64,000 bases of DNA. It comes from Okapia johnstoni. Its lineage: Eukaryota > Chordata > Mammalia > Artiodactyla > Giraffidae. Numbering within the stretch: the stretch's first letter is position 1; each line of letters opens with the position of its first letter. The position numbers and the translations under genes were made by a program. The notes beneath the pieces are model-generated. The model ran no database searches and was not told the DNA's origin. It saw nothing but the letters and a program-made list of their open reading frames with translations. Positions 18,201-20,636 of the stretch are shown piece by piece. The stretch lies in NCBI GenBank assembly GCA_024291935.2, contig CM044310.1, forward strand, positions 118,120,213 to 118,184,212, given 5' to 3'.

Positions 18201-20636
18201 TTATAATAAGTAATATGTCTAGGTGGTGAAAAGTGCTGTGATGAAATTAAGTTGCGTCATGGACCAGTGTGAGCCGGGGCTCCTCTTTTAGGAAAGGGAG
18301 CAGCTCTGTGAGGTGCAGATTGTAGCTTACATGTGCTTGCAGTTCTCTGCTGTGTCATTTTCTTTCTTTTTTTTTTTTAAATTAAAAAAAATTTTTGCCG
18401 CAAGACGTGTGGAATCTTACTCAGATGGTAAAGAATCCACCTGTGAAGCGGGAGACCTGGGTTCGATCCCTGGGTTGGGAAAATCCTCTGCAGAAGGGAA
18501 TGGAAACCCACTCCAGTATTCAGGCCTGGAGAATCCCATAGTCAGAGGAACCTGGCAGGCTCCAGTCCATGGGGTTGCAAAAGAGTCAAACTCGGCTGAG
18601 CGACTAACACACGAGGGATTGAACCCAAGCCCCCTGTACTGGAAGTGAAGAGTCTTAATGGCTAAGCTGCCAGGGAAGTCCCTGTGTCATTCTTTTCATT
18701 CCCCTCATGCCAACAACAGCACTGGATCCGTGGGGAGGCCTGTCTTCCTCCAAACTGAGCCAGATTTCCTCCACCCCTCTCCCTCTCCATTGCTCCTTCC
18801 CACCAGTTTTCACAGCCTGTAGCTGTTTTCCTCATGTTCTGTCTCTGCCCTGTGAAGTGGTTTTATCCCCCCACAGCGTAGGCTCTGTTGACTTGCAGAA
18901 TGTATTTATGACTCCCCAACACTAGCACCGTTCCTGGTCCACTGTGGTCAGAAATCAGGATCTGTGGACTGGATGAGTCCCTGTGTCATAATGTGGATAA
19001 GGTGCCCTGCAACCTTTGGTCTCCTTCTCACAGAACATTGTTTATATTTTACAGTCTCTGCATGTCTGCAAGGCTAGTGTTTAGAAGGTATTCAAATCTG
19101 TATTTATTCCTTGTGCATTATCCAACCCTGTGTTTTACACTAACTACTTTTTTCTTTTGGCTGGTTTGTGGCACTGTTCCAATGTGCAGGGAACATTAAA
19201 CATAGAATTTTATTTATACCTATAAGAACATCCCCAGAAAGATTCCTCATATCAAGGTATTTTTAGGAAATTCATTTTTCTTCTCTTTCCTAGAAGTCTG
19301 GAAATTTGACGACCACCTGCTGGAGTACTTACAAAATGAGAGCGTGGAGAAGAGACTAGAACAATGGCATCGACAGAACCCACTAGAAAATGCTGTTCAT
19401 CAGAGCATAACTCATTTTCTGCTCAGACAGCATCATGATGTGTTTGACTTCCATGGAAAATGTATGAAATCAAATTTAACTTTACTTTCTCAAAACCTAA
19501 GCTATGAAATAAAGAGTTCCAATGAGCTTACTGGAGATGAGAAATGCTGTCGCCATGCTGACAGTGAACAGTATCATCCTGAAACTAAATTCCCCCAAAG
19601 CCAAAAACCCATCAGCTCCAAATCCCCATTCAACAAGCATCAGAAAACTAAAAAAACAGAGAAGCCTCATGTATGTGGTGAATGTGGGAAAGCTTTCATC
19701 AAAAAGTCTTGGCTCACTGATCATCAGATAATTCACACAGGAGAGAAGCCCCATCGATGTAATCTTTGTGACAAAGCATTCTCTAGAAAATTCATGCTCA
19801 CTGAACATCAGAGAACACACACAGGAGAGAAACCTTACCAGTGCACTGATTGTGGCAAAGCCTTCCTCAAGAAATCACGGCTCAATATACATCAGAAAAC
19901 CCACACTGGAGAGAAACGGTATATCTGCAGTGACTGTGGAAAGGGCTTCATCCAGAAGGGAAATCTCATTGTACATCAGCGAATTCACACAGGTGAGAAA
20001 CCTTACACATGCAGTGAATGTGGAAAAGGCTTCATCCAGAAGACCTGCCTCATCGCCCATCAGAGATTTCATACCGGAAAGACTCCTTTTGTGTGTAGTG
20101 AGTGTGGAAAATCCTGTTCCCAGAAGTCAGGTCTCATTAAACATCAAAGAATTCACACAGGGGAGAAACCCTTTGAATGCAGTGACTGTGGGAAAGCCTT
20201 CACTACAAAGCAAAAGCTCATTGTCCATCAAAGGACTCACACGGGAGAGAGACCTTATACCTGCAATGAGTGTGGGAAAGCTTTTGCCTACATGTCTTGC
20301 CTTGGTAAACATAAGAAAATACACACAAGAGAGAAACACAGAGATGCACTCACGGGGGAGAATCCTGCCTCACAGACAAGTGATGCCAGGCGGGAGAAGA
20401 ACCTTGTTAACTTGGTGGCTGTGCAGGTGCCTTCTGTGGCCCTTCAGCCATCAGTCAACATCAGTGAACTCCTAGCCAATAGGAACGTCATCATAACGGG
20501 ACCACCTGTGGGCAGGTGTGCACCCGCAGGAGATGACAGAGGGTCTGCAGAGGACAGAACCCTTAAGAACGCAGTGAGCATGGTTGTGCCTTCGGTGGTC
20601 AATTACATTTTATTTTGTGTCACAGAAAACCCCTAG
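15227..20636 (+). CDS. ZNF350: KRAB C2H2 zinc-finger protein, ZNF350/ZBRK1 ortholog (spliced)
   Basis: Coding exons join(15227-15241, 15635-15761, 16027-16119, 19294-20636) total 1578 nt, 525 aa plus TAG, all phases compatible. The protein begins MTQAQ. KRAB A retains [11 protein letters not shown] and DVMLENY. KRAB B reads [19 protein letters not shown]. Eight C2H2 fingers occupy residues 204-422, with a tail at 423-525 ending [11 protein letters not shown]. The finger order ([58 protein letters not shown]) matches human ZNF350 (532 aa, eight fingers), including the Cys that replaces the core Phe in finger 6 (CGKSCSQK). Known for the family: ZBRK1 binds GGGxxxCAGxxxTTT and represses GADD45A with BRCA1, and its tail contributes to repression. 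The ORF is intact. Confidence 0.92.
15635..15761 (+). CDS. ZNF350: ZNF350 KRAB A exon
   Basis: 127 nt between acceptor ttattacag and donor gtgagg. Encodes [17 protein letters not shown] through [12 protein letters not shown], with phase 1 exit. Confidence 0.93.
16027..16119 (+). CDS. ZNF350: ZNF350 KRAB B exon
   Basis: 93 nt between acceptor catgaacag and donor gtgagt. Encodes [20 protein letters not shown], then [10 protein letters not shown]. Phase is retained. Confidence 0.9.
16262..16506 (-). mobile_element. BovB 3'-end fragment
   Basis: Reverse-strand BovB tail in the ZNF350 KRAB B to finger intron. Not seen in the duplicate's intron. Confidence 0.85.
16715..17035 (-). repeat. Long CHR-type SINE copy
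   Basis: tctttgttgctgcatgctga, then the gatcagggatcaaactcgtg core and ctgagctcccagtgaagccc end. Confidence 0.75.
17926..18130 (+). repeat. Bov-tA SINE
   Basis: Forward copy from ccactcagacgggaaag to gactgagcaactaacacaca. Confidence 0.9.
18395..18685. repeat. CHR SINE (-) interrupted by a Bov-tA SINE (+)
   Basis: Bov-tA at 18411-18612 splits a CHR SINE, whose other half ends ctgccagggaagtccc. The identical nested arrangement occurs at 28845-29132, so both insertions predate the ZNF350 duplication. Confidence 0.85.
19294..20636 (+). CDS. ZNF350: ZNF350 zinc-finger and tail exon
   Basis: Acceptor ctttcctag ends at 19293 and the frame joins as [11 protein letters not shown]. It contains the linker, eight fingers (first Cys codon near 19674) and the roughly 100-residue tail. 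The tail DNA from about 20402 doubles as relic fingers in the +2 frame (see findings). Confidence 0.93.

Follow-up and report, generated by a model that had tools for sequence, protein, structure and literature searches.

A C-terminal tail shared by okapi KRAB zinc-finger genes probably arose from zinc fingers read out of frame

The coding DNA behind the last intact zinc finger of g2, a KRAB zinc-finger gene of the okapi, descends from further zinc fingers. The same kind of tail DNA is present in two neighbouring paralogs, g3 and g4, and in all three genes the old finger codons are out of step with the codons of the tail by the same single base. In the explanation that we favour, with a probability of about 0.9, the array behind finger 8 was frameshifted by a net loss of one base modulo 3 and was overprinted as a non-finger tail before the gene was duplicated. 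The new tail is perhaps a co-repressor domain.

The gene cluster and the finger remnants

On the plus strand of the window, which is the whole 64-kb stretch of DNA that was analysed, four KRAB zinc-finger genes lie side by side; they are named g1 to g4 here. A KRAB-A box lies upstream of each gene, at 3309-3419 (g1), 15641-15763 (g2), 27529-27651 (g3), and 44624-44746 (g4). Both g2 and g3 code for a KRAB protein that has eight C2H2 fingers and ends in a tail of this kind. The main features of the cluster are as follows.

4139-5683, plus strand: last exon of g1 (open reading frame)
15641-15763, plus strand: KRAB-A box exon of g2 (tblastn with the KRAB box at 44624-44746 against the window, E 3e-17, 75.6% identical)
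19206-20636, plus strand: last exon of g2, the gene of the finding (open reading frame)
19653-20324, plus strand: fingers 1-8 of g2, intact and in frame (C2H2 pattern on the translation; eight PF00096 stretches)
29936-31351, plus strand: last exon of g3 (open reading frame)
49396-50298, plus strand: last exon of g4 (open reading frame), with an in-frame continuation to 50616

Long open frames of 263, 134, and 165 residues run on the minus strand opposite the finger arrays, at 4709-5500, 30608-31012, and 49597-50094. The window also holds open reading frames at 8299-8877 (plus strand) and 42655-43242 (minus strand) that we take to be the reverse-transcriptase-like frames of a LINE, and an intact frame of 345 residues at 62793-63830 that presumably belongs with the vomeronasal type 1 receptors, which it resembles.

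Behind finger 8 of g2, four remnants follow in the repeat register of the array. They are called units 0, A, B, and C.

20241-20324, plus strand: finger 8 of g2, the last intact one (anchor of the profile alignment)
20325-20636, plus strand: coding tail of g2, the overprinted segment, 103 residues and the stop codon TAG at 20634-20636 (within the frame 19206-20636; profile score 55.3, 0/706 controls)
20325-20389, plus strand: unit 0, remnant of a ninth finger, 65 of 84 bases (38/65 bases as in the finger consensus, in the profile alignment anchored on finger 8)
20390-20473, plus strand: unit A, full-length 84-base finger remnant (45/84 identical to the consensus; ungapped score 25.6, 0/115,338 controls)
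20474-20548, plus strand: unit B, 75-base finger remnant with a 9-base deletion (33/75 identical to the consensus; 3' part reached by 85/115,668 controls)
20549-20632, plus strand: unit C, full-length 84-base finger remnant (49/84 identical to the consensus; ungapped score 27.9, 0/115,338 controls)
20637-20749, plus strand: possible units D and E in the 3' flank, weak (the alignment path continues; the flank alone scores 20.0, which 10/706 controls reach)

The finger-like strings that the first-pass annotation had pointed out in this tail do occur there, in the frame offset by +2 bases from the coding frame; the tails of g3 and g4 show the same thing more plainly. It had also placed two landmarks 159 nt apart, or two finger periods minus nine bases, and this is correct, since units A, B, and C are 84, 75, and 84 bases long. 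For unit B, its register is wrong by nine bases. The CGKAF position of g2 is GGGACCACC (20498-20506), not TGTGGGCAG after it, and the missing nine bases lie before it, as follows from the profile alignment and from the finger frame of g4. There, the frame 2 bases after the coding frame reads RCQRVFTGEEPHECSECDTAFNYQLCLLLCYGKH, preceded upstream by ECGSCGRAHGQ.

The counterparts in the other three genes are listed next.

31058-31351, plus strand: tail of g3, with unit 0 at 31058-31110, A at 31111-31191, B at 31192-31266, and C at 31267-31350, in the same shifted frame (profile score 52.9, 0/706 controls)
50290-50616, plus strand: tail of g4, behind the in-frame TAG at 50296-50298, with unit 0 at 50290-50369, A at 50370-50453, B at 50454-50528, and C at 50529-50602 (profile score 99.0, 0/706 controls)
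50603-50682, plus strand: unit D of g4, in a third phase (ECIQCGQAF), which shares bases with the end of the tail frame and continues beyond the stop of that frame (nhmmer E 0.019; bases 4-47 score 20.7, 0/115,738 controls)
5615-5892, plus strand: unit 0 of g1, in frame and ending at the stop codon 5681-5683, and an untranslated counterpart of the tail with frame-breaking indels (four-gene alignment; nhmmer 5692-5731, E 1.3e-4)

The tail of g4 is the most finger-like copy. The gene itself (49396-50616) looks like a decaying one: its TAG at 50296-50298 stands ahead of an open tail of 105 codons, and its fingers include one with CKEWGKAF, another that lacks a codon, and one with GRRQRVH. The tail is lost from the protein in g1, where it lies behind the stop, and apparently in g4. 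Relative to g2, the tail counterpart of g1 has indels of 8, 24, 3, 1, 1, and 3 bases. In the 3' flank of g1 (5684-6257), untranslated finger-like DNA extends over several units behind the stop, and the segment 5996-6300 scores 39.0, with 0/706 controls as high.

The finger signal in the tail DNA

A DNA profile of the finger was made from the 30 regular 84-base units of the four genes, leaving out irregular fingers, several of which are in g4. A circular version of this profile, in which indels are allowed and one unit runs into the next, was scored leaving out the gene's own fingers. As controls, 706 segments, each 312 bases long, were taken from both strands of the remainder of the window. 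None of them scored as high as the tails of g2 (20325-20636), g3, and g4, the control maxima being 23.9, 25.0, and 26.6, respectively. The untranslated counterpart in g1 (5684-5995) scores 26.7, which one of the 706 controls reaches. Past the stop codon of the tail the signal is clear in g4 (41.5, 0/706), weak in g3 (23.5, 1/706), and weaker in g2. When the profile includes the gene's own fingers, all four gene regions outscore every one of 100 dinucleotide shuffles each; the g2 tail with its 3' flank, for instance, scores 71.9 against a shuffle maximum of 23.1.

Ungapped scores of the single units point the same way. For units A and C of g2, the highest score in 115,338 control windows each was 18.7. 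Unit B is weaker than A and C: its 3' part stands out as listed, and its first 24 bases have no signal of their own, being reached by 7,213/115,938 controls. The unit D stretch of g2 has no ungapped signal against the control windows. In g3, unit C scores 29.7 (0/115,338), and the 3' parts of A and B are reached by 19/115,568 and 3/115,578 controls. In g4, units 0, A, B (3' part), C, and D each top all of their 115,338 to 115,738 controls.

A search of the whole window with the finger profile in nhmmer finds the intact fingers. Beyond them it finds units C (E 1.9e-6) and A (0.003) of g4, with 50618-50648 of the same gene at 0.019, two stretches of g1 (5692-5731, as listed, and 6128-6179 at 0.006), and unit C of g3 (0.026). 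For g2 it returns unit C alone, at E 2.2.

At the protein level, the 30 finger units were translated in frame, one base out, and two bases out, and profiles of the three translations were compared with a background of 778 open reading frames. The one-base-out profile matches the tail protein of g4 (E 1.9e-6) and that of g3 (E 0.0038), both above all 778 background frames, and it has no match to the tail of g2. The in-frame and two-bases-out profiles do not match the tail protein of g2, g3, or g4. The sense-frame tails of g4 and g3 are therefore recognisable as the shifted reading of fingers (QERNLMNVVNVILPS).

The C2H2 profile scan of the finger frame (PF00096), which had been set beforehand as the test that could overturn the proposal, was negative for g2. 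In the finger frame Pfam has no match for the tails of g2 or g3, and for g4 it gives PF13465 only (E = 0.0058, 17.4 bits against a cut-off of 40). In the sense frame, the best C2H2 matches of g2 contain no finger stretch past residue 379. Pfam is too insensitive here, and the claim is carried by the DNA-level test. An AlphaFold2 run on a three-sequence alignment of the tail gave no usable model (mean pLDDT 44.6) and supports neither side. Scans of viral and of bacterial and archaeal contigs found no relatives of the tail, as expected for a mammalian gene.

At the DNA level, the 84-base repeat register continues from the last finger with above-chance similarity, as in a C2H2 array by descent. 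The central proposal of the first-pass annotation, that the DNA after finger 8 of g2 is decayed finger DNA, is thereby confirmed by the 706 segments and, for units A and C, by the 115,338 windows: the tail DNA of g2 descends from tandem C2H2 finger units. The number of fingers, given there as three, was too low. At least units 0, A, B, and C took part, plus D in g4, and because this further unit stands behind the tail of g4, the ancestral array was longer than three fingers.

The frameshift and possible selection on the new frame

Over the tail the coding frame is one base out of step with the fingers, and it slipped between finger 8 and unit A, as had been supposed. In g2 the slip falls in unit 0, whose change of length is a net -19, or -1 modulo 3. 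Between the last intact finger and unit A, g3 comes to a net -31 and g4 to -4, again -1 modulo 3 in each. The alignment of unit 0 in g2 puts the loss of a single base after 20339 and a gap of 18 bases downstream of it, at positions that are uncertain. For unit 0 of g2 and g4 together, it proposes a single early missing base and deletions of whole codons, the exact base again being uncertain.

The phase is constant beyond this point. In units A, B, and C of g2, g3, and g4 alike, the finger codons begin one base before the sense codons. Such a consistent difference in phase between the old frame and the used one is what marks a case of overprinting. The 9-base deletion in unit B is also common to the three genes. 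In g1 the same offset is seen in units A and B and is lost afterwards. We read this as one shift in the common ancestor, which would then have been inherited through duplication. The single ancestral indel proposed by the first-pass annotation is supported to the extent that agreement among three paralogs in net phase and in the 9-base deletion allows.

In the history that we propose, finger 8 in the ancestor of these KRAB zinc-finger genes would have been followed by at least four or five others. Immediately behind finger 8, the array would have lost a net one base modulo 3, and its remainder would have come to lie in the +1 frame. The old finger DNA of units 0, A, B, and C would thus have become the coding DNA of a non-finger tail, probably in a single event and before the gene duplication. 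A tail of about 80-100 residues could be kept, without truncation of the protein, because the +1 frame of C2H2 arrays tends to lack stops.

Alternately, a stop codon may have come first. In that case fingers 9 onward decayed as 3' untranslated DNA behind a stop after finger 8, and they were annexed in the shifted frame when that stop was later lost. Two of the four genes do have a stop in unit 0 (g1 at 5681-5683, g4 at 50296-50298), and both have finger remnants outside the coding sequence. These stops, however, are different codons in different places, which looks like two separate losses rather than one ancestral stop. In addition, the sense frame of g4 remains open over 105 codons behind its stop, and one phase is common to all tails. 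We regard this order of events as unlikely, with a probability of roughly a quarter.

The new frame may carry traces of selection. The sense frame of the g2, g3, and g4 tails has no stops, against about 3 expected (P 0.04). Changes by codon position number 46/26/53 (P 0.009), with the fewest at position 2. From unit A to the stop, every indel among the three genes is 3 bases long; indels in the flanks measure 1, 3, 6, 8, and 11 bases. In dN/dS among the three paralogs, the sense frame (0.51, 0.53, 0.54) lies below the finger frame (1.01, 1.03, 1.90), but the third frame (0.64, 0.80, 0.52) is similarly low. Pooled, synonymous changes (40/125) are not in significant excess (P 0.12), and the six ordered pairs give P 0.039 to 0.085. 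When the three tail proteins are aligned, 28 positions of the g2 tail do not vary.

The tails can also be compared with their 3' flanks. Between g2 and g3, 178/244 positions of the tails are identical, hardly above the 93/135 of the flanks. In the pairs g2/g4 and g3/g4, identity is clearly higher in the tails than in the flanks (161/247 against 59/122 and 164/244 against 62/122, respectively). From these sequence comparisons, the evidence for selection on the new frame is suggestive only.

The KRAB-A exons of g2 (15641-15763) and g3 (27529-27651) share 120/123 bases, and the tails of the two genes about 73%. This contrast suggests that gene conversion may have occurred, or that the rates may have been unequal.

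It may be that the tail descends from fingers and has no function, a leftover sequence that by luck fell into a stop-poor frame. The weak selection tests, with a third frame of similar dN/dS, would fit this, as would the absence of the tail from the proteins of g1 and apparently g4, and the divergence of the g2 and g3 tails by about as much as their flanks. Against it stand the missing stops, the scarcity of changes at position 2, the restriction to in-frame indels, and the closer likeness of the tails than of the flanks in the two comparisons with g4. The loss of function published for constructs without the human ZBRK1 C-terminus, within the available text of PMC4466662, also argues against it if the genes are orthologous. 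We consider a functionless tail improbable to about the same degree as the stop-first order.

Far less probable is an origin from elsewhere, such as an inserted transposable element or a captured exon. The sense-frame tail of g4 belongs to no Pfam family, so that no name gives away its origin, and among the best 60 of 263 matching sequences of solved structures all cover finger regions and none the tail; the finger register, however, is unbroken from finger 8 through A, B, and C save for small deletions. A chance resemblance or an effect of base composition, for which only the negative single-gene protein tests on g2 would speak, is refuted at the DNA level by the segment, shuffle, and window controls (0/706, 0/100, and 0/115,338 for two units separately, with the same result in two paralogs), and its probability is negligible.

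Known relatives of the finding and a possible origin of effector domains

The finding can be set beside several known systems. In overprinting, as here, coding DNA is taken over in a new frame after an indel. The present case differs in two ways: the old frame has gone out of use, and the DNA taken over was a tandem repeat with a shifted frame that is repetitive in its turn and largely open. Degenerate fingers of KRAB proteins likewise lose Cys and His ligands at the end of the array. They are ordinarily in frame, as is CKEWGKAF in g4, whereas the tail is out of frame.

The two shifted frames of a finger array are not equally open. Over the in-frame arrays of the four genes, the one-base-out frame contains 15 stops and the two-bases-out frame 62. 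A stop occurs in 13/30 finger units one base out and in 28/30 two bases out, and in the latter frame it falls at unit position 27 in 22/30 units. A net loss of one base therefore enters the more open of the two shifted frames. Over the intact fingers, the one-base-out frame is open for 197 residues in g2, 163 in g4, 95 in g1, and 85 in g3.

Long open shifted frames over finger arrays also appear in the available text of Samandi et al. (2017, PMC5703645). Of the alternative proteins reported there, 110 have zinc-finger domains, and for 89 of these the main protein of the transcript is a zinc-finger protein too. Their alternative proteins of ZNF761 and ZNF816 have ILERNLTSVMSVARPL-like repeats, which resemble QERTLMNAVNVVVPS of the tails described here. 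As presented there, those cases are separate open reading frames over intact fingers. Here, by contrast, the finger protein itself runs on into the shifted frame, the original finger frame no longer codes, and three paralogs have the arrangement in common.

The first-pass annotation knew of no account of such an origin, and in the open-access literature, with subscription papers mostly outside, none was found that describes a frameshifted-finger origin for this or any other KRAB zinc-finger tail. The elements are known, namely overprinting, open shifted frames in finger genes, and degenerate fingers. Their combination in a shared and possibly functional tail appears to be new.

A possible function is suggested by ZNF350/ZBRK1. 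The first-pass annotation named g2 as ZNF350, and g2 may be its ortholog; g3, with eight fingers and a tail of this kind, has the same layout. The C-terminal repression domain (CTRD) of ZNF350/ZBRK1 may include the last fingers as well.

The human protein, as described in the available parts of the papers, has 532 residues, a KRAB domain, eight fingers, and a C-terminal repression domain that forms tetramers and binds co-regulators, among them BRCA1; the protein takes part in BRCA1-dependent repression (PMC5739812, PMC12127727, PMC3731817). How the domain originated is not a subject of these parts. Constructs that end at residue 439 lose the activation of the VHL promoter, according to the available text of PMC4466662. 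ZNF432, a relative taken to be unshifted, is given 16 fingers in the accessible part of PMC10639050. On these descriptions, human ZNF350/ZBRK1 resembles g2 and g3 in having eight C2H2 fingers and then a non-finger C-terminal tail. The tails of g2 and g3 extend 97-103 residues past the last intact finger, and the human construct 1-439 of 532 lacks CTRD function (PMC4466662, PMC5739812, as far as their available text goes), a comparison by position and description.

If g2 is the ortholog, tails of the g2 type may be the ZBRK1 CTRD or a part of it. Should both hold, the most likely mechanism would be oligomerisation through the hydrophobic segment read in the shifted frame, with recruitment of co-repressors, so that the tail would act as an oligomerising co-repressor domain. 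A tetramerising, co-repressor-binding domain would then have been born from fingers read out of frame.

Whatever its function, the tail offers a traceable birth of a protein segment, in which the source DNA, the direction of the shift, and the shared scars are still legible. A general bias is suggested as well, with one shifted frame mostly open and the other blocked. It is a tentative idea, and less likely than not, that C2H2 arrays hold a latent protein which a one-base indel turns into a repetitive non-finger tail, and that KRAB families made C-terminal effector domains in this way, the ZBRK1-type repression domain being one of possibly several. Because one shifted frame is mostly open, frameshifts in one of the largest families of human transcription factors need not be simple knock-outs.
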